Shown: one piece after another, positions 2,632 through 54,462 of the stretch
Layout: the number at the start of each line of letters is the position of its first letter
Position numbering within the stretch: position 1 is the stretch's first letter
From: a virus
Direction: 5' to 3' (one strand)
DNA length: 61,430 bases
Virus record (IMG/VR): IMGVR_UViG_3300025574_000085
Location: 1 to 61,430 of that record
Notes under the pieces: model-generated
What the model saw: the letters and a program-made list of their open reading frames with translations, nothing else
Databases searched by the model: none
Told to the model about the DNA's origin: nothing
Position numbers and translations under genes: made by a program

Positions 2632-3179
2632 GGCTGCCGCCACGTCAAGCCTGCTAGCGCAACGCTCATGGTCGAAGCGTCCACTTGATGCTCTCGCGCC
2701 AGAGCGGCGATGGTTGCGCCCGCCGCTCGGCGGAGTCGGCATTCCGCGACGATGGCCCATGACAGCTTGGCGTTGCCATTGACATCGCCGGACGGGGAGA
2801 AGTGCGTCACAGTGCCGTCGCGAACCTTGTCTGCCGAGTTCTCGGCGGGCGTGCCGTAAGACAGGTTGACGGCGCGATTGTCCAGCTTCCCGCTGGGACC
2901 GTGGCGAACCTGCTGGCCCGGCGGACATGGCCTAATGAACGCGGCAGCAACGAGCCCGTGCACGCTGACCGTGAGGTGGTCCCCTGAGCGGCTGAGGGTG
3001 ACCGCGAGGTAACGGCGGCGAATGCGCGGAGCCAGGATTCTGCCCTCGCGCCTGGTGCGGCCATGGGGCCCGTTCCTGATCTCGCGGGGCAGGCTCCGCA
3101 CCCGGCCAAGGTCGCTGACCTCGTACAGGCCTTCGAACCCGGCAATTGGCCGCCAGGTCTCGTCGGTAGCATCGTTCAT
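2628..3179 (-). CDS. NUMOD4-HNH homing endonuclease
   Basis: The 183-aa protein begins with a NUMOD4 motif (WRPIAGFEGLYEVSDLGRVR), followed by a beta-rich region and an HNH core (VHGLVAAAFI, then a region ending LDNRAVNLSYGT). A short C-terminal helix-turn-helix (ATIAALAREHQVDASTMS) probably contacts DNA. The ATG at 3179 has GAGGTG five bases before it. Upstream the frame stays open to 3401, but that part is the displaced N-terminus of the neighbouring gene. This is a free-standing mobile gene in the early operon. Confidence 0.82.
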   Translation of the reverse strand: MNDATDETWRPIAGFEGLYEVSDLGRVRSLPREIRNGPHGRTRREGRILAPRIRRRYLAVTLSRSGDHLTVSVHGLVAAAFIRPCPPGQQVRHGPSGKLDNRAVNLSYGTPAENSADKVRDGTVTHFSPSGDVNGNAKLSWAIVAECRLRRAAGATIAALAREHQVDASTMSVALAGLTWRQP

Positions 3180-3401
3180 GTCGCACCTCACAGCAGGTGT
3201 GGCCACGCCCCGGGGCCGGTTGCACGGTCGCCGGGGCCTACCCGTAAATTCTATCGTTTTCACGCCGCTACCAGGTCGTCTTGCCACAGCCGCGCGCCGT
3301 TCCACGGTGGTGCCGTCGGCGTCGGGCTCGGTGATGAGGGCGGCGGCGATGGGCAGCCACGCGGCGATAGCCGCGCACGACTCAGCCAGGTCAGCGGTCA
3401 T
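3180..3401 (-). pseudogene. displaced 5' fragment of the gene at 2053-2631
   Basis: From the ATG at 3401 the frame encodes AESCAAIAAWLPIAAALI and about 20 more residues. These are clearly homologous to the start of the downstream gene, then run in frame into the HNH endonuclease. The fragment uses the high-GC codons typical of the genome. It may still be translated as a short leader or an HNH fusion (257 aa). I read it as the old 5' end left behind by the insertion. Confidence 0.6.
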
Positions 3402-3589
3402 GGTGCCTCAGCGCGGATGCCATGGCGCTCCAGTGCCGTCTCGTACAGCGTCGTGAATTCGGTTGGGTGCTCGCGGGCGAGCGCTTCAAGGGCCTCCCGA
3501 CGCGCCCTGCTGCGCCGTCGATTGCGCTCGACGTACTCGGGGTGTGCGGCGCGGTAGGTGCGCTCGGCCTCGACGTTGCGTGGGCTCAT
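3398..3589 (-). CDS. small charged helical protein (63 aa)
   Basis: This Arg/Glu-rich protein (RTYRAAHPEYVERNRRRSRA and on) looks fully helical. Its first part recalls the repeated arginine-rich N-terminal segment of the endonuclease VII gene at 970-1803. ATGA overlap with the upstream stop fixes the start at 3589. The function is unknown. Confidence 0.6.
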   Translation of the reverse strand: MSPRNVEAERTYRAAHPEYVERNRRRSRARREALEALAREHPTEFTTLYETALERHGIRAEAP

Positions 3590-3771
3590 GAGGCCGCCCG
3601 GTAGGCGCGGTAGCTGGTGGTCTTCGCGGTGGATTCGCTGGTCAGGTGCCAGAAGCCGCCGTCGCACCGGTAGGCCCGCAGCTTGCCGCGGGTCCGCCGG
3701 AACCGTCGCGCCTCCTGCCGGGCGTGCTTGCGGGTCAGGAACCGGATCTTCCCGCACGCGCATTCAGCCAT
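3586..3771 (-). CDS. small basic zinc-finger-like protein (61 aa)
   Basis: The protein starts MAECACGKIRF and has a third Cys in YRCDGGFWHLT, a common layout in actinophage microproteins. GAGGGA lies before the ATG at 3771. Its stop overlaps the next start. Nucleic-acid binding is plausible from the basic Arg/Lys content but is not shown. Confidence 0.6.
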   Translation of the reverse strand: MAECACGKIRFLTRKHARQEARRFRRTRGKLRAYRCDGGFWHLTSESTAKTTSYRAYRAAS

Positions 3772-4000
3772 GGCCGTCCCTCGGGTCCACGGGGGCGCCG
3801 GTGGCGTCAATCACCATCACCGGCGTGGTTGCTGGGTCTCGCCCGGACAGGATCAGCAGGCAGTCGAAGCACACGCCCTCATCCGGGCCAGGATTGCTGG
3901 CACCCACGCCGTAGTAGTCATCCAGCGGCGTGCACTGGTAGGTGCGCTTGCAGCGCTGGCAGGTCACTTGCTGCCATTGGATCGCCTCGTTCAGGTCCAT
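3764..4000 (-). CDS. zinc-ribbon protein (78 aa)
   Basis: CQRC near residue 14 and CFDC near residue 44 form a two-knuckle zinc ribbon. The C-terminus is Pro/Asp-rich. The gene overlaps both neighbours by a few bases within the packed operon. No specific family is assigned. Confidence 0.65.
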   Translation of the reverse strand: MDLNEAIQWQQVTCQRCKRTYQCTPLDDYYGVGASNPGPDEGVCFDCLLILSGRDPATTPVMVIDATGAPVDPRDGHG

Positions 4001-4134
4001 GGCGTGTCCTTGAGGCGTGCCTTGCGGCGCCGGTCGCGCTTCGTCTTGGCGTTGCGAGCCTCCGCCTCGCGGCGCTTGACGACCCGGAGGTCTCGCGCCG
4101 CGCCTTTCCGCTGCGGCCCGTGCCAGGCGCTCAT
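3991..4134 (-). CDS. Lys/Arg-rich microprotein (47 aa)
   Basis: The sequence is strongly basic (RREAEARNAKTKRDRRRKAR) and likely helical, so it may bind nucleic acid. The start at 4134 forms an ATGA overlap with the upstream membrane-protein gene. No family is recognised. Confidence 0.5.
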   Translation of the reverse strand: MSAWHGPQRKGAARDLRVVKRREAEARNAKTKRDRRRKARLKDTPWT

Positions 4135-4343
4135 GGGCGCCACGTCACGTACATGTTGCGCGGGGAATGCGTGCACTCCCAGCAGATCGACGCCCCCATA
4201 GCAATCGCCCACGGGACGCAACCAGCCATTCCCCAGAAAGAGCCGGTCGCCAGGAGGATTGGCCAGGACACGGCGTGGGCCAGGATGAGCGTTATCCACA
4301 TCCATTTGAGCCATGGATTTCTGAGGCCGCATCCAGTACGCAT
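4131..4343 (-). CDS. small membrane protein (70 aa)
   Basis: Two hydrophobic segments (about residues 12-31 and 35-52) are followed by CWECTHSPRN, suggesting a two-pass protein with a Cys pair. GAGTGG precedes the ATG at 4343. The function is unknown. Confidence 0.55.
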   Translation of the reverse strand: MRTGCGLRNPWLKWMWITLILAHAVSWPILLATGSFWGMAGCVPWAIAMGASICWECTHSPRNMYVTWRP

Positions 4344-4348
4344 CCGCG

Positions 4349-4795
4349 TCACCACTCGCTGCCCATGGTCGCGCTCAGCAGCGCCGGCAGCGAGGCGGGG
4401 ACGGGACCTGGCTCCCATTTCGGCGGGCAGTCCCAGACCATCGTGGCGGCCTTGCGGACGAGGACGCGGGTGGGGTGCCTGCGGGGCAGCCGCCGCTTCT
4501 CCCGACGGGCGGTGTCGGCCTCGTCGAGCTGGCACAGGCGGCCACGGTCGCCTAGGTAGCCGACCTCGGCTTCGAGGAGGACGAGGGTCTTCTGCACCTG
4601 CCGCGTGCCCGGTGCGGCCTGTACCGGCGCCGGGAGCGCGGGTGGCGGTGAGGGGGTGGTGAGGTCGTGGCGGGGCCGCGGCGGGTTCTTCAGGAGGGTG
4701 ATCTCTGACCGGGTGAACGGGTGTGTGATGTCCCGCCGGACCGGGGCTTCGATGGCGAGGCGGTCGGCGTGCTGGCCGCGGTGGAAGAGGCTCAT
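4349..4795 (-). CDS. hypothetical protein (148 aa)
   Basis: I chose the ATG at 4795, which overlaps the previous stop as ATGA. The N-terminus reads MSLFHRGQHADRLAIEAPV and the middle is Pro-rich. A short charged segment then leads to a C-terminus with WDCPPKWEPG. No domain is recognised. Confidence 0.55.
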   Translation of the reverse strand: MSLFHRGQHADRLAIEAPVRRDITHPFTRSEITLLKNPPRPRHDLTTPSPPPALPAPVQAAPGTRQVQKTLVLLEAEVGYLGDRGRLCQLDEADTARREKRRLPRRHPTRVLVRKAATMVWDCPPKWEPGPVPASLPALLSATMGSEW

Positions 4796-5205
4796 GCGTG
4801 CCTCCCGGACCATGCCATCACCATGCGTGACCAGTCCGGATACCACTCGATCGCTGGCAGCGTGTGGAAAACGTTCTCGCGCGGGCCAACGATCACCAGG
4901 CGCTTGCCGAGCCCGAGCGCCAGCCCGAACTCGACGTGACGCCCGCCTTTCCCGCCGCCGCCCGCCGAGGTGAACGAGATCACCGTGTCGGCGGCTTCGA
5001 GGTCTTCGAGGTCGACGCGGGCGTACTTCGCGCACTCGTCCGGCTGGGCGTTCAGCTTCTCAGCGACGAACGACTCCAGCAGGTTCCCGCCGTGCTGATC
5101 GATCCAGCGGGAGGTGACCTCGTGGCCGAGCGCCTGGAGGACGTCGCGGACGCCCCGCATCTCGTCGTTCCGGCTGTAGCGGGCGGCTAGGTAGATCTTG
5201 CTCAT
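4792..5205 (-). CDS. nucleoside 2-deoxyribosyltransferase-like protein
   Basis: The 137-aa protein starts MSKIYLAARYSRNDEM, the typical first strand and loop of this fold. It has the E92 motif GRHVEFGLALGLGK, where the Glu is the expected nucleophile. Known enzymes exchange or cleave the base-deoxyribose bond. In phages such proteins may recycle nucleotides or sense nucleotide signals. AGGAG stands before the ATG at 5205. The fold assignment is good; the substrate cannot be told. Confidence 0.75.
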   Translation of the reverse strand: MSKIYLAARYSRNDEMRGVRDVLQALGHEVTSRWIDQHGGNLLESFVAEKLNAQPDECAKYARVDLEDLEAADTVISFTSAGGGGKGGRHVEFGLALGLGKRLVIVGPRENVFHTLPAIEWYPDWSRMVMAWSGRHA

Positions 5206-5492
5206 GCGGTTCTCCTGGTGTCGCGGATGGGTTCGTGGCTGCCGCATGGCCCGTGGTCCCAGACATGGATCAGGGCCAGGCAGCGACGGCAATGGCGGTA
5301 CTGGGGCAGGGATTTGGCGGCGAGGGGATGGCAGGCGAGGCACCGCTGCGGCCCGTCCGGGGTATCCATTTGCCGGGTGCCTTTCTGGCACTGGCCGCAC
5401 CATTCCGGGGCTGCGCCTTTGAATTTGCCGTTGTCGGCATCCAATTCAAATCGCCCTTTCGTCTCGCTTGTGGATAACCTCGCGCGTTCCAC
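5202..5492 (-). CDS. zinc-binding protein (about 96 aa)
   Basis: Three Cys pairs (CGQC, CLAC, CRRC) followed by a Cys-Gly-Ser-His end suggest two zinc sites. The start is uncertain: a GTG at 5492 lacks a clear ribosome site. A perfect DnaA box (5469-5477) lies inside its first codons. It is the first gene after the repeat-rich control region. Confidence 0.55.
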   Translation of the reverse strand: MERARLSTSETKGRFELDADNGKFKGAAPEWCGQCQKGTRQMDTPDGPQRCLACHPLAAKSLPQYRHCRRCLALIHVWDHGPCGSHEPIRDTRRTA

Positions 5493-27172: not shown

Positions 27173-29299
27173 TTAGCCGGCTGCGGTGATGGGTGTCATG
27201 ACCGTGTTGGTGGCGGACAGCATCCCCGTGACGGACTGGTCCCAGAGAGCCATCGGCGTCAGGGTGAACACCTGCGAGTAGTCGTTCCACTCATAAGCGC
27301 CGGTCACGAACTGGATGGGGCTGCCGGGTGCGACTTCCCCGCCGTACCCGTAGTCGGTGAGGATCGCCCGGCAGCAGGTGGCGGCCTGGTCGGTGCCGGG
27401 GTCGATGGGCACGCCGCCGAGGGTCATCAGGTCCCCGTAGTGGCCGGTGATCGGCTGGGTGAAGCTGGCCCGTTTGTAGATGGCGAGGATGTTGTTCCCG
27501 ACAGCCTGTGCGGCGCCGGAGGACTGGACGCCGACGTCGGACAGGTCGATGAACGTTTCGATGGTGCCGTGCGCGGCGACGGACGCGGCGCTGGTGGCGG
27601 TGACTAGCCCGTACGTGGCGGCCGTCCCGCCGCTGGATGAGGTGTCGGCGGTGGCCTGGTAGCGGATGACGATCGTGTTGATGTCGCCGCCCAGTGTGCG
27701 GGGGGCCGCGTCGGAGACGATCAGCAGCCGGTTCGGGACCGACGGGAGGGGGAAGACGCTGATGTCGGTGCCGGGGAGGCCGCCGGGCTGGCTGTTCGCG
27801 TACCAGGTGAGCTGGCCGCGGGTCGTGACCAGGTTCAGCAAGGCCGTGAGGGTCTGGGCGCCTGAGTCGACCTGCTGCCCGAACCATGCCCCCGCCGGTG
27901 AACCGATGCCGGGGTTGACCCACGGCAGGCCCCGGGCGATGGCCTGATTCACGGCCTCGTCGGGCTGGGCGGCCGGCCAGGTGCTCGTGTAGAGCGCGAG
28001 GAAGTCGGTTCCCCGCTGCCCGTCCCCGACCGCGGTCAGTGTCCACCCCGCCGCGCTGGGCACTGGCTCGTCGAGCCGCCCGGTCCACACGACGTGCCCG
28101 CCGCGGGTGACGCGCACCTGCCAGCCAGGGTTGAACGCCTGGGTCCGGTAGGTGGCGGGCACCATGACCGTACAGGTCATTTTGTCCGCCCCGCCGGGGC
28201 ACACGAAGCTGTAGGTGAGGGCAGTGACGACCCCGATGGTGCCGAGGTAAATCCAGTTCGATGACCCGGGCGGGGCGACCGCGACCTGGCTGCTGCCCGG
28301 ATATGCCTGCGGGATGGTGGCACCGGGTGAGGCGAACACCAGGCCTCCGGTGGCCTGCAGCACGCTCAGGGTGCCCTGCCCGGCCAGCGGTGCCGGGTAT
28401 CCGAGCTGTACCCCGGACAACCCCAGTGTGCCCAGCCCGGCGAGGGCGGCGGGCGGCTGCTGCAGCAGCCCGATCCAGGTGGCGGCCAGGGTGCCGGACC
28501 CGGACAGCGCCGCAGACTGGGTGAAGGTGCCAGTCAGCGCCCCGGACAGGGCACCGATCCCGGACAGGGCGGCGCCGCCGCCGAACCCGGTGGCGGTGGC
28601 GGTGCCGGAGAGGGTGCCGGACCCGGACAGGCCAGCCGCGCCCGCGAACACGCCCGCCCCGGACAGCGACCCGGACCCGGACAGGGCCGCGGCGCCGGAG
28701 AGGGTGGCTCCCTCAATGATCAGGACGTCCACACCGAAGATCGTGTCGGTGCCGCCGGCCCACACCGGGGCCTGCGCCGCAGAGGTACAGGCCAGGTCGT
28801 AGCACAGCGCGTTGCCGTTCGGGTCCAGCGCGTACACATACCCGGAGGTGGACCCGGCGGTCAGGTTCCCGGCGACGGTATAGGCGAAACCGAAGTACAG
28901 TTCCCCCGCACCGGTGGGGGTGCTCGCGGTGAACGTCTGGGTGGCCGCGGCGTCGATGGTGCCGCGTTTGTCGACCACCCACGCGCCGATGCTGGAGGAG
29001 AACATCCGGCCGGCGGCGCGGATCGTTGGGGTGGTGCCCGAAAACGCCAGGGTCGCGGTCGCGGACCCCGAAGCGGTCGAGACTCCCTGCCACAGCGACA
29101 CGTAATAGGCGGTGGTGGTGCCTTTGAATGGGGTGCCGATCTGCGTCCAGGTGCAGTTACCGCCGGAGATGCCGTTGCAGAACACGGTCGCTGATTCGGC
29201 GACGACCGCGACGAGCGCGAGCTGATTGGTGCCGGTGGGTGCGACGGTCAGCGACGTCGATGTCGTCGCAAAAAGAGACCCGACCGGCGTCCAGGTCAT
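27173..29299 (-). CDS. large minor tail protein with LSGxG repeats
   Basis: The 708-aa protein has three parts. Residues 1-200 match the N-terminus of the giant fibre at 45432 (NGISGGNCTWTQIG). Residues 200-300 are repeats of the type ALSGSGSLSG. Residues 320-708 are a baseplate-type beta domain (YLGTIGVVTALTYSFVCPGG and on). It is probably a distal tail or baseplate protein that meets the host surface. Confidence 0.65.
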   Translation of the reverse strand: MTWTPVGSLFATTSTSLTVAPTGTNQLALVAVVAESATVFCNGISGGNCTWTQIGTPFKGTTTAYYVSLWQGVSTASGSATATLAFSGTTPTIRAAGRMFSSSIGAWVVDKRGTIDAAATQTFTASTPTGAGELYFGFAYTVAGNLTAGSTSGYVYALDPNGNALCYDLACTSAAQAPVWAGGTDTIFGVDVLIIEGATLSGAAALSGSGSLSGAGVFAGAAGLSGSGTLSGTATATGFGGGAALSGIGALSGALTGTFTQSAALSGSGTLAATWIGLLQQPPAALAGLGTLGLSGVQLGYPAPLAGQGTLSVLQATGGLVFASPGATIPQAYPGSSQVAVAPPGSSNWIYLGTIGVVTALTYSFVCPGGADKMTCTVMVPATYRTQAFNPGWQVRVTRGGHVVWTGRLDEPVPSAAGWTLTAVGDGQRGTDFLALYTSTWPAAQPDEAVNQAIARGLPWVNPGIGSPAGAWFGQQVDSGAQTLTALLNLVTTRGQLTWYANSQPGGLPGTDISVFPLPSVPNRLLIVSDAAPRTLGGDINTIVIRYQATADTSSSGGTAATYGLVTATSAASVAAHGTIETFIDLSDVGVQSSGAAQAVGNNILAIYKRASFTQPITGHYGDLMTLGGVPIDPGTDQAATCCRAILTDYGYGGEVAPGSPIQFVTGAYEWNDYSQVFTLTPMALWDQSVTGMLSATNTVMTPITAAG

Positions 29300-50230: not shown

Positions 50231-50896
50231 TTAGCCTGCCTTTCCGGCCAGCATGTCCAGCATGGCAGCCGCGTGATACTCCGCGATGTACTCCATCAAG
50301 TCCTCGACGCGCTGGCCCGTCGGCTGCATGATCAGCCAGAGTTCCAGGTTGCCCGGGTCGTTGTCGTGCTTGATGCCGTTCTTGTGGTGGACGTTCTCAA
50401 GGCCCACGAGGCGTCGGCCGAGTTGCTGTTCCATCACGAGCACGTGCGCCAGGACCCGGCGGCCGTCCGGCATCGTGCGCCGGACGTAGCCTTCCTTGCC
50501 CGGCTTGACGACACCCCTGGCGCGCATCGGCTGCGCGGGCCCGACTTCGCCGGTACGGCGCAAGCGCTCGCCGTGCAAATGGCAGTAGGTCGCGCCCTTG
50601 CGACGCCGATCGCAGCCCTCGACCGCGCAAATCGGATCGGGCGCGGGCATGCGGCCTTTCTTCACAAGTCCCGCCGGGCCCGGCTCGCCGTGAGCCCGGA
50701 CGCGGGAACGGTGCATCGCGCAGTAGCCGCGCGACTCCGTGTCCCTTTCGCAACCCTCAACCGAGCATTGAGCCTTTGGCTGCCAGGGACGAGCTTCGAG
50801 ACTTCCGCTGCGGTGCAACCGGGTGTAGTGGAGCCGGCAAAGCCCGCGCGCCACTACGACCCGGTTGCATCCGTCGACACTGCATATCTGGTCCAT
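50231..50896 (-). CDS. HNH endonuclease beside the intron-split capsid gene
   Basis: This 221-aa protein has three Cys4-like repeats (CSVDGCNRVVVARGLCRLHY and two like it) and a C-terminal HNH core (VLVMEQQLGRRLVGLENVHH, then NDPGNLELW). It starts 36 bp after the second capsid exon ends, outside the intron. It may help the intron home. The last codons run into the next gene's ribosome site. Confidence 0.8.
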   Translation of the reverse strand: MDQICSVDGCNRVVVARGLCRLHYTRLHRSGSLEARPWQPKAQCSVEGCERDTESRGYCAMHRSRVRAHGEPGPAGLVKKGRMPAPDPICAVEGCDRRRKGATYCHLHGERLRRTGEVGPAQPMRARGVVKPGKEGYVRRTMPDGRRVLAHVLVMEQQLGRRLVGLENVHHKNGIKHDNDPGNLELWLIMQPTGQRVEDLMEYIAEYHAAAMLDMLAGKAG

Positions 50897-50931
50897 ACCT
50901 GGTAGTTTACCAGAATATAAACCAGAATTTG

Positions 50932-51003
50932 TCACAGGCCCTTCATTACCCTGAACGCCCCGGGAACGGCGACCTGCGAGGATGTGCGCCAGAACATGAA
51001 CCA
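50932..51003 (-). other. major capsid gene, exon 2
   Basis: This short exon encodes WFMFWRTSSQVAVPGAF, then RVMKGL and a stop. It is the usual end of HK97-type actinophage capsid proteins and is joined to exon 1 after the intron is removed. It has no start of its own. Confidence 0.75.
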
Positions 51004-52656
51004 CGGATTGTTACTCACTCATCACAGTAAGTGAGGCCAGGTCATTTCTGCCTGGCTCTGCATCTTTTCCATCGATGCAGACCGGACTATAACTTCACCT
51101 GCGGTGCACTGCCCCTATTGCACTCGGGGCAGGTCCCATAACACAGGTGCCACACGCTTAGTCTCTACGGAACCCTGAATGCGAGGTTTCCACGGTATTC
51201 CCCACGAACTCGGAGGGGTTCACCGTTACGGTGCGGTTTTCACTGACCGATCACTCGGTCAGGCGGCCAGTTCGAATTGACCGGCTTGCCCTGACGGAAG
51301 CGACGAACCAGAGCCCTTAACGAGGGGCTCGTAAATAAGACTAACCCCCACACGGTCGACCACTATGAACTGCCCGAAGTCGCCCATGACGGCTTCGAGG
51401 CTGCCGATGGAGGTGGTGCCGGACATGGTGGTGGACTCGTAGATCGGGGCGCCCAGCAGCGTCTCGGGCTGGCCTTTCCCCAAATTCGTCCAAAAACTCG
51501 CACCTCCAGCCGTGTCAAGCTGGCGGAACTTGTTGATAATCGCGACGTTCGCGACCCACGCGGCACCCGGCGCGTTGCGGAACCGCGGCGGCAGCGCGCC
51601 CTGGACGGCGTAGATGTCGCCGACCGCGATGACCAGCGTGGTCGCCGTGGTGACCACGGTGGTCGCGCCGGTGATGACGCCCGCCGGGACGCCGCCGGAA
51701 CCCGCGCCGGTCGCGAAGGCGGCCTCTTCCAGCCGGTCCTTCGCGTCTGCGAGAAGACGCGGGAGCTGCTGGCCGAAGTCGGTGTCCTCCAGCACTTCGT
51801 AGGAACCGAACACCCACGCCGCAGCCTTCTGCGGGGTGATCTGGACGTTCCCCACGGTTGGGGTGCTGTCGGTGGACGTCGTGCCTTCAGTGAGCCACGC
51901 CGCGCTGACACCGGCCGACGTGACGCCGTTCCACGTGTTGCTGGTCGTCTGCTTGACGTTGCTGATCCGCCGCCACGGGTTCGCGGAGCCGGTGTTGGTG
52001 AGGATGATCGTCGGGTCCAGCACGAACGGCAGCAGGTAGCCGCCGTTGGCCAGGGTCAGGGTCAGCGCGGCGCGCTGTGCCATTCCCTGCGGGTCTTCCA
52101 CGTAGGCGCGGAAGGTTTCCTGGTAGTCCTCGGAGCCGGTGAGCAGGATGTGCTCGGCGACGCCGCGGCCGTAGGTGCCGGGGTTCTCCTGGACCATGCG
52201 GGTGGCGTTCTCCGCGAAGTCCTGTGCCAGGTTTCCCCGCTTGGCCTCAAGCTCAACGGCGTCGAACGCGCGGCCGCGGAGCTCAGGGGTGCGGATCATG
52301 TGGGAGCGGACCGCGTCCGGGTCCTCGTACGGGTCCCGGTAGCGGCTGGTCACCAGGTCGGGGCTGCCGCCGCGGTACGGGGTGCCGCGGCGGGCGCTCC
52401 CGTTCCCGTTGCCGTTCCCGTCGCCGTCGGGCCGTTCGAGGTTGGCCTCGTCGTCGGTGGCTCGGGTGATGCCCCGGATCTTCTCCATCCGCTCGATGAT
52501 CGGCTTGGAGTCGGCGTCGAGCCCTTCCCACCGGTCCAGGAGGGTGTCGCGGTAGTTGCCGTCGTCCTCTTCGGTGACGGACTCGTCGGTCTCCATCCGC
52601 TGGAGTTCCTGCTTGATCCTCGCCATCTCGTCGAGGATGTCCTTCAGTGCGGTCAA
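50932..52656 (-). CDS. HK97-type major capsid protein, split by an intron
   Basis: The spliced product joins 52656-51280 (459 codons) to 51003-50932, giving about 482 aa. An N-terminal scaffold-like helix and a DPDGNG-rich linker (to about residue 120) come first, then the capsid core (GGYLLPFVLDPTIILTN, NTWNGVTSAGVSAAWLTEG, FGQFIVVDRVGVSLIYEP). Without splicing the frame would stop soon after QFELAA at 51259 and lack the conserved end. A TTG start at 52656 has GAGG upstream; an ATG at 52626 is possible. Confidence 0.8.
51004..51279 (-). ncRNA. group I self-splicing intron in the capsid gene
   Basis: On the minus strand the exon ends GCCGGT and the intron starts CAATTCGAAC. P1 forms between CGGTCA and TGGCCG with a U-G pair at the 5' splice site. 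P10 forms between GAACT and the start of exon 2, GGTTC. P7 is GACTA (51163-51159) with TAGTC (51089-51085). P8 is CTGCCCC/GGGGCAG and P9 is TCTGCATC/GATGCAGA; two more hairpins follow. The intron ends with G. It has no ORF. Confidence 0.78.
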
Positions 52657-52681: not shown

Positions 52682-53980
52682 TTACCAGACCAGCCCGGCC
52701 TTCTCCCGCGCGTCCTTGGCGCGGAGCACGTAGAGGGCGTGCTGGTGATACCGGGCCGAGTGCTCGCCGCCGTCAGGCGTGAGCGGGTCGCCGGGGGCGG
52801 GTCCCTCATCGGGGGGAGTGCCGGGGTCTTGCTCCTCGTCCGGGTCCGGGCTCCAGGAGCCGGGAGTGGACATACGGACGCCGAGGATCTCGGCGCCCGT
52901 GTAGGCGGGCCACAGCACCGGGCCGTAGTCCCGCAGGCCCAGTTCGGTGCGGCGCACCACCGGGAGTTCACCGCCGCGCGGGCGGTACTTGTCACCCATC
53001 CGCAGCTGCGGATCGGATCGCATGATCCCGCCGACGAACGACTGCGCGGTGATCGCGCCGCTGCGGATGTTCTCCAGCACCTCATCGGCCAGCGGGGTCT
53101 CGCTGTAGCGGGTGCGGGTCAGCACTCCCCGCGCCTCCGCGCGGATGCCGTCCTCGACGGGGACGCCGATTGGCATGGAGAACCGGTCGGACGGGTTTCC
53201 GGCCAGGTCCCGGCCGTGGTTCCACAGGACCTTCACTGAGGCGGGGAAACCGCCGCGGGACCGCTGCGCGTGGTCGATCGCGCGGTTGAACGCGCCCGGG
53301 TCGATCGTCTCCAGGTAATGGCCCTGGTGGTCCTGGATCTCGGCTTCCTGGTTGAATACCGCCGCGTACGCCTCGACGGTGCGGCCGTCGCCGCCGTCCG
53401 CGGAGCGCAGGATGTGGATGTCCTCCAGCGGGTAGATCCGCATGAACTCCGCGCGGGACGCTGGCTTGCTGTCATCGCTGCTCACATCAACTCCGAGCCT
53501 CTTAGCCGCAGCTTTTATCTTCGGCATGGCCTTGTCACCGAACGGGGACTGCGGGGCGCGGCCGAGCGCGTCGCGGACGTGCGCGGCGTCGTGGACCGGG
53601 AAGTGCCGCAGCGAGCGGGGGACCGTCCGGCCGGAGCCGTCCTTGGTGCCGCCGGGCTCGATATGGGCGAACGCGCTGTCGGGCAGGTTGTTGACGCTCG
53701 CGGAGGCCATCTCCGCGCGCTCCGCTGTTGCCGTCACCAATGACCTCCCGGTCGCCTTCTTGTCCATTGCCGCGTGCTGCGCCGGGTACATGCCGGTAGC
53801 GGCCTTGTGCGCCAGATTGCAGTAGCCCTCGGCGTCGTCGATGTACTTGCCCAGGTGCTCGACGCACCGGGCGAAGTCCGACGGCTCGCCCCAGCGGATC
53901 TTCGCGGCGCCCTCGCCGTGCACCCAGTAGGCGTGCAGCCGCTCGGTGTCCCCCGGATGAGCTGCAGCGCCGCCTGCCAT
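52682..53980 (-). CDS. HK97-family prohead protease with N-terminal extension
   Basis: The 432-aa protein has a first domain (residues 20-170) with SFAHIEPGGTKDGSGRTVPR, then HFPVHDAAHVRDALGR, as seen in other actinophage proteases (DUF6582-like). The second is a U35 protease: RTVEAYAAVFNQEAEIQDHQ, LETIDPGAFNRAI and VKVLWNHGRDLAGNP. It should cut the capsid protein during maturation. The start overlaps the upstream stop (TGATG). Confidence 0.8.
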   Translation of the reverse strand: MAGGAAAHPGDTERLHAYWVHGEGAAKIRWGEPSDFARCVEHLGKYIDDAEGYCNLAHKAATGMYPAQHAAMDKKATGRSLVTATAERAEMASASVNNLPDSAFAHIEPGGTKDGSGRTVPRSLRHFPVHDAAHVRDALGRAPQSPFGDKAMPKIKAAAKRLGVDVSSDDSKPASRAEFMRIYPLEDIHILRSADGGDGRTVEAYAAVFNQEAEIQDHQGHYLETIDPGAFNRAIDHAQRSRGGFPASVKVLWNHGRDLAGNPSDRFSMPIGVPVEDGIRAEARGVLTRTRYSETPLADEVLENIRSGAITAQSFVGGIMRSDPQLRMGDKYRPRGGELPVVRRTELGLRDYGPVLWPAYTGAEILGVRMSTPGSWSPDPDEEQDPGTPPDEGPAPGDPLTPDGGEHSARYHQHALYVLRAKDAREKAGLVW

Positions 53981-54462
53981 CAGAGCTTCCCGGCCTGTGC
54001 GACCAGCGCCCGGGCATTGGACAGCAGGACGTGGATCTGGTGCTGCAGGTGGGCCACGTGCGCCTTGTGCGCCGACAGCTTGTGCTTCGTGGTGGCGGCC
54101 TTCTTGTGCGCGGTGACGGCCTTTTTCACCGTGGTCGCCTTCTTCGCCGCCGTGGTCGCCTTCTTCGCCGCTGTGGTGTGCGCGGCCGTCTGCTTCTGCA
54201 CCGTGGCCAGCTGGGCCATCAGCGTGTGCGCCTGGGCGCGGAGCGCGGCGGCCTGCGCGAGCAGCTGCGCCTTGCGGGCTGCGTTCGGATTGGCCGCGCT
54301 CTTGCCGCCGCCGGTGCCGCCCGTGGCCGCGCTGCCGCCGCCGCCGCTGGAGGACGCGAACTGGCCGCCGGTGGGGCCGCCGGCCGCGGCGTGGGTCATG
54401 TTGAACCGCTGCGCGCCCGCCGCCCACTCACCAGCCCAGCGGGATGACCACGAGTCAGGCAT
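53980..54462 (-). CDS. Lys/Ala-rich coiled-coil head protein (160 aa)
   Basis: The start has THAAAGGPTGGQFASS, a motif common near the portal/protease genes of actinophages. The rest is an Ala-rich helix with histone-like K-A-A-K repeats (AAKKATTAAKKATTVKKA). It lies directly before the protease and may bind DNA or scaffold the head. It is divergent from the pentamer-repeat cassette. Confidence 0.55.
   Translation of the reverse strand: MPDSWSSRWAGEWAAGAQRFNMTHAAAGGPTGGQFASSSGGGGSAATGGTGGGKSAANPNAARKAQLLAQAAALRAQAHTLMAQLATVQKQTAAHTTAAKKATTAAKKATTVKKAVTAHKKAATTKHKLSAHKAHVAHLQHQIHVLLSNARALVAQAGKL

Follow-up and report, generated by a model that had tools for sequence, protein, structure and literature searches.

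A predicted self-splicing group I intron in the major capsid gene of an uncultured phage, a further member of a family known from mycobacteriophages

The window, that is, the whole stretch of 61,430 nucleotides analysed here, comes from an uncultured phage (IMG/VR record IMGVR_UViG_3300025574_000085, positions 1 to 61,430), and the genes discussed below lie on its minus strand. An HK97-type major capsid gene, whose protein matches phrog_10 (major head protein), starts with TTG at 52656 and runs through a first exon of 459 residues (51280..52656) ending in ...GCCGGT at 51280. Directly upstream, at 52682-53986, lies a head maturation protease gene (PF04586), and a protease gene directly before the capsid gene is the usual order in HK97-type phages. 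Past 51280 the capsid frame stays open for the short tail QFELAA and a stop (51259..51279, TGA at 51259-51261), giving an unspliced ORF of 465 aa that ends ...SGQAGQFELAA and matches PF05065 with an E value of 1.2e-34. Then follow the remainder of a 276-nt element (51004..51279, CAATTC...AATCCG) with no ORF of its own, a short second exon (50932..51003, reading TGGTTC... from 51003), and a free-standing HNH endonuclease gene of 221 aa (50231..50896). The original prediction held that the contiguous capsid frame ends in QFELAA and lacks the conserved end of the protein, that a downstream segment without start codon supplies it, and that splicing at 51280|51279 and 51004|51003 restores an in-frame protein of about 482 residues. 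Translation bears this out with exact coordinates: exon 2 reads WFMFWRTSSQVAVPGAFRVMKGL followed by a stop, the joined protein has 482 aa with the junction peptide GQAG-WFMFWR, and its alignment to the Pfam Phage_capsid profile covers positions 1-279 of 280, versus 1-242 of 280 for the unspliced ORF. The interruption falls between Gly459 and Trp460, 23 codons before the capsid stop.

We searched 63 related IMG/VR metagenomic loci, found by their capsid sequence, with the joined protein (tblastn). The insertion site was reached in 57 of them, the six others stopping short; it was empty, with contiguous coding sequence, in 52, and filled at the same place in five (L004, L016, L028, L061, L065). 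The junction thus corresponds to an empty/filled polymorphism, and is fixed because intronless and intron-bearing relatives are homologous there: exon 2 is homologous to the contiguous C-terminus of the intronless relatives and remains conserved, with its frame, where the site is filled. Filled alleles all have the same exon bases at the positions predicted to pair in P1, whereas empty alleles vary there. The combination of C at -4 with T at -1 is absent from all of 53 empty alleles and present in all of ten filled ones, which include L093, L139, L142 and L150 from a motif scan and are partly kin; C at -4, a position that is exonic whatever the exact junction, is found in 21/53 empty and 10/10 filled alleles. 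Placement of the junction required a U (T) at the exon end and a G at the intron end, and its base-exact position rests on this group I rule, since a shift by one base would also keep a glycine codon.

The element itself can be folded into the plan of a group I intron, with helices P1-P6, P7, P8, P9, P9.1 and P9.2 written from the window's own sequence. P1 (51264..51283) pairs exon CGGU and intron CA (51278-51283) with UGGCCG (51264-51269); P2 (51244..51261) is a hairpin with a GUGA (GNRA) loop; P3 (51231-51236/51150-51155) encloses P4, P5 and P6; P7 (GACUA 51159-51163/UAGUC 51085-51089) crosses P3 as a pseudoknot, with P8 between its strands; and P9 (51074-51081/51057-51064), P9.1 (51051-51056/51036-51041) and P9.2 (51030-51035/51014-51019) follow. 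The P7 pairing, the P8 and P9 hairpins and the terminal G (G51004), all named in the original prediction, are present and conserved in relatives, and the U-G pair it placed at the 5' splice site is formed by U51280 in the window and found in all 14 alignment rows that have letters on both sides. Its P10 fares less well, being recognisable by inspection only (intron GAACUG with exon UGGUUC), and two of its pairs are G-U. We aligned 14 capsid introns with the tail intron of mycobacteriophage BAKA (15 rows). In this alignment 93.0% of 947 cells are paired, versus 32.6-39.0% for slid versions of the structure, a comparison in which the named structure, like the family model R1, is favoured because it was derived from the same introns. 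Of the 64 pairs, 31 change on both sides, some of them in P7, and the covariation score is 0.316 against a shuffled mean of 0.118. Within the core, P4, P5 and P7 are paired in 100% of cells and P3 in 95.6%, P6 being the weakest (78.9%); two-sided changes affect 3/6 pairs in P3, 1/4 in P4 and 3/5 in P7, where GACUA/UAGUC changes in step to GACCA/UGGUC and GAGCA/UGCUC. The fold of the intron (MFE -120.7 kcal/mol) has a z of -3.6 relative to 100 shuffles, and in 58 of 61 representatives of the wider family the best early hairpin has a GNRA loop.

The Rfam group I intron model RF00028, proposed as a check in the original prediction, gave a mixed answer: it matches with 27.1 bits and an E value of 5.7e-5 in a search of 501 bases, but this lies under the Rfam gathering score of 50, at which no match is obtained anywhere in the window. 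The gathering score is the curators' threshold and not a biochemical property. Two introns of locus L128 pass it (86.2 and 57.7), and the BAKA intron, shown by RT-PCR to be spliced, is not listed for RF00028 even at E <= 0.01, so that the cut-off seems insensitive for this family. The family model R1 scores 296.6 bits at 50998-51287, exon flanks included, the window copy being one of its 15 training sequences, and finds no other family member in the window.

The original prediction made no mention of the downstream HNH gene, the mycobacteriophage relatives or the wider family. A blastn search retrieved 29 mycobacteriophage records: 27 carry a tail-gene intron (74-75% identity over 77% of the query, query positions 60-297, E 2e-28) and two correspond to the capsid intron of LittleE (75% over 66% of the query). 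Pope et al. (2013) report RT-PCR showing the removal of both the BAKA tail intron (28186-28450) and the LittleE capsid intron (PMC3706429). Position 51004 of the window aligns with BAKA 28450, the reported 3' end of that intron, and R1, whose training set includes BAKA, also finds Redno2 and LittleE. The BAKA/Redno2-type intron, which interrupts a minor tail gene in cluster J phages, is described as likewise ORF-less and 265 nt long (PMC3706429), and shares with the window intron the 3' end, the P2-P9.2 plan, the exon U and the terminal G. It differs in its host gene and, because the site differs, in P1 and P10; its unspliced tail reads LSDDLAAAAA instead of QFELAA, and in contrast to the window no HNH gene is annotated within the 2.2 kb examined. 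The LittleE intron is also a group I intron of a major capsid gene with a homologous core (R1 193.7 bits) and splicing reported from RT-PCR (PMC3706429), but it lies near the mature N-terminus, measures about 810-820 bp and contains an endonuclease ORF on the opposite strand, whereas the window intron has no ORF and its HNH gene lies outside. By its sequence, the window intron is thus a further member of a family already known in mycobacteriophages, where splicing is proven.

We consider that positions 51279-51004 are a group I intron in an HK97-type capsid gene, predicted to be self-splicing, with a probability of about 0.96. The original claim that such an intron splits the major capsid gene is borne out by the empty and filled relatives, the covarying structure and the 3' end matching that of BAKA. 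The major shell protein gene of this phage is then, as read from its sequence, interrupted near its end, and the RNA element in it very probably removes itself from the message, with catalysis and splicing efficiency inferred. One might instead take the unspliced 465-aa ORF for the real capsid protein and the downstream piece as dead, as this ORF is open and holds most of the capsid domain. Yet the last ~38 positions of the capsid profile are missing from it and are regained only by splicing, the missing end is contiguous in 52/57 relatives, exon 2 is kept in frame where the site is filled, and the covarying intron structure also speaks against this reading, which we regard as very improbable. 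Just as improbable, in our view, is a group I intron that has decayed and no longer splices, the phage being defective or using a second capsid copy: its RF00028 score below gathering would agree with decay, and activity of the window copy is predicted, but helices P3-P7 of the core are intact and shared by the 15 aligned introns, exon 2 shows no degradation, and the relatives with proven splicing have the same core and 3' end. A group II intron, an intein, a frameshift and an assembly error seem less apt, as a group I intron agrees with the structure, with the empty alleles and with the five further filled ones.

In the predicted self-splicing reaction, the transcript would fold into P1-P9.2, guanosine would attack after U51280, and the 3'-OH of exon 1 would then attack after the last intron base, G51004, joining the exons into the message for the 482-aa capsid protein. 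Ribosomes arriving at the junction before splicing would halt seven codons further on, at an in-frame UGA inside the 5' strand of P2, and would so be kept off the ribozyme core, leaving a truncated capsid product ending in ...QFELAA. The early stop agrees with the known requirement that ribosomes stay clear of the intron, and such stops in frame are a feature already described for group I introns (PMC3073962, PMC3984707).

The way these unspliced tails end deserves attention across the family. Of 122 hand-picked family introns, 104 had an exon T, an intron G and a clear frame, and the other 18 were dropped; the 104 were grouped into 61 site classes, with reading frames chosen by openness and third-position G+C. 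A stop occurs within 11 codons in 55/61 classes in frame versus 55/122 in the other frames, and the stop is preceded by Ala-Ala in 24/61 versus 1/122; without the nine loci in which the rule was first seen, the latter figures are 17/53 and 1/106. Of the 21 classes having the motif GCCGCCTRR, 19 show it in frame with exon 1, whatever the insertion phase, and the length of the P1 loop therefore offsets the phase. Certain endings bear a striking similarity to the ssrA tag (RRDFALAA, VEAKHDFALAA, LQRDTFALAA, YRNDWALAA), whose consensus is given as ending in ALAA, with AxAA called crucial (PMC8778911); QFELAA of the window has the LAA, but E instead of A before it. Another large group stops immediately (after V, VN, LN or LSA), one of the 24 Ala-Ala classes, L243, reads on for more than 80 codons before its stop and is surely due to chance, and three T4 introns used as control end in FLG, SFA and ELT, too few for proof.

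We put forward as a tentative and rather doubtful idea that the first codons of the intron add an ssrA-like -LAA or -ALAA end to unspliced capsid fragments, which would then be destroyed before poisoning assembly. The -AA endings may also be explained by RNA pairing together with the needed early stop. GGCCGCC looks conserved as RNA, forming the 3' strand of P1 and the joint to P2, and Ala-Ala is possibly a by-product because this sequence is fixed as RNA: given selection for an early stop in frame, NTG GCC GCC TGA automatically reads [LVM]AA and stop. That -AA endings also arise from different RNA (LAAAAA in BAKA, ATAAA in LittleE, AVAA in L161, WALAA in L128) argues mildly for selection on the protein. 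If such tags work, they would explain how phages tolerate introns in a gene where a truncated subunit should be dominant-negative. Among the papers listed in literature searches none on intron-encoded degradation tags was found, and no tRNA or tmRNA was found in the window.

The site-460 intron, patchily distributed, requires 6 changes on a capsid tree of 65 sequences, versus a shuffled mean of 9.4, and therefore moves. It has probably spread between phages by recombination, perhaps aided by the HNH endonuclease. The product of the HNH gene matches phrog_5351 (HNH endonuclease, E 2.9e-28) and PF13392 (HNH_3, E 3.7e-6, on the longer ORF 50231-51004), and a comparison with solved structures gave only a meaningless match (E 0.28). 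Its start codon (AUG at 50896) is covered by a hairpin (50880..50945, minus strand; MFE -22.8, z -3.6) that none of 200 shuffles equals in stability; this modelled fold suggests that translation of the endonuclease is repressed or late, and buried start codons have been reported for other phage homing endonucleases (PMC3073962).

Compatible with the group I intron reading, the HNH enzyme might cut empty capsid alleles at the intron site and carry the intron and its own gene along together. The gene starts 35 nt past the capsid stop and 107 nt from the intron site, and among genomes with at least 600 nt downstream an HNH gene is present in 5/6 filled versus 14/48 empty ones (one-sided Fisher p 0.017, ignoring kinship). 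The same layout, an ORF-less intron near a free-standing homing-type nuclease gene, is described for cyanophage psbA, T7-like phages and ICP1 terL (PMC10448857, PMC3984707); here, in contrast to those systems, the co-occurrence of intron and HNH gene is suggestive only. Against such collaborative homing, the HNH gene is present in 14 empty genomes, the filled loci L028, L139 and L150 show no HNH gene in the flank seen, and on the same 65-sequence tree the HNH state requires 20 changes versus 18.5 when shuffled, being no more clustered than shuffled labels. The linkage between HNH gene and intron is thus weak, and we place collaborative homing somewhat short of even odds; perhaps the intron hitch-hikes with the HNH gene.

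The family extends well beyond this site. Nine sites or more of this capsid gene hold an intron, in window numbering at 459/460, after residues 206, 214, 284, 393 and 437, and within codons 282, 288 and 436 (phase-2 sites numbered by hand), and L061 and L065 carry three introns each in the capsid gene. In L128, another capsid gene has five introns (minus strand copy, 3176-5432); after two of ten model-drawn boundaries had been moved (one by 2 nt, tested, the other by 5 nt, by inspection), its protein is 69% identical over 297 residues to that of a single-intron relative, L126. The searches with R1 returned 22, 109 and 120 rows, repeats included, and were run alongside motif scans of viral contigs. 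Members of the family also turned up in major capsid genes of other types (phrog_1357/Phage_capsid_4, SU10-type, phrog_2263) and in the gene of a major tail protein, the identity of the host proteins having been tested for seven and six proteins (L120 has no named function, L122 none in Pfam); as R1 and the motifs were built from capsid introns, the apparent preference for capsid genes is biased by the search. The introns sort neither by site nor by genome. The window intron is itself a mosaic, its core resembling L150 and L093 and its 3' end L004: 70 sites separate L004-like from L150-like sequence with only 6 switches between them (permutation p 5e-5).

Several group I introns per gene are also described for crAss-like and Jug phages, and a crAss-like Zeta capsid gene is reported to lie in five fragments, with group I intron-type domains in 3/4 intervening segments (PMC7886860, PMC12363816). 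Those are gut phages with other hosts, and the crAss-like introns bear nucleases, whereas the introns of the present family are mostly G+C-rich, measure about 230-323 nt (model bounds) and resemble actinophage introns. Splicing of the family is already proven in mycobacteriophages; seen here besides are its spread over many capsid sites and unspliced ends that often resemble a bacterial degradation tag. Annotation pipelines truncate such capsid genes and overlook the introns, and the Rfam gathering score finds none here. With nine sites or more in a single capsid gene, the family provides a natural series for studying site choice and site change in ORF-less introns, and a possible driving role of adjacent HNH genes.

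Beyond these cases, the P7-P9 motif occurs in 48 stretches of bacterial genomes (L170-L217), whose titles name Patescibacteria, Chloroflexi, Proteobacteria and further groups, and in no case an actinobacterium. A further group of loci (L243, L241, L239, L238, L225, L220, L226) shows a multi-intron gene in which some junctions misfit the exon U/intron G rule; its peptides resemble by eye the L120 protein, which matches phrog_13692 (unknown function). Finally, the uncultured phage contig L261 has five R1 matches in its capsid gene, like L128.
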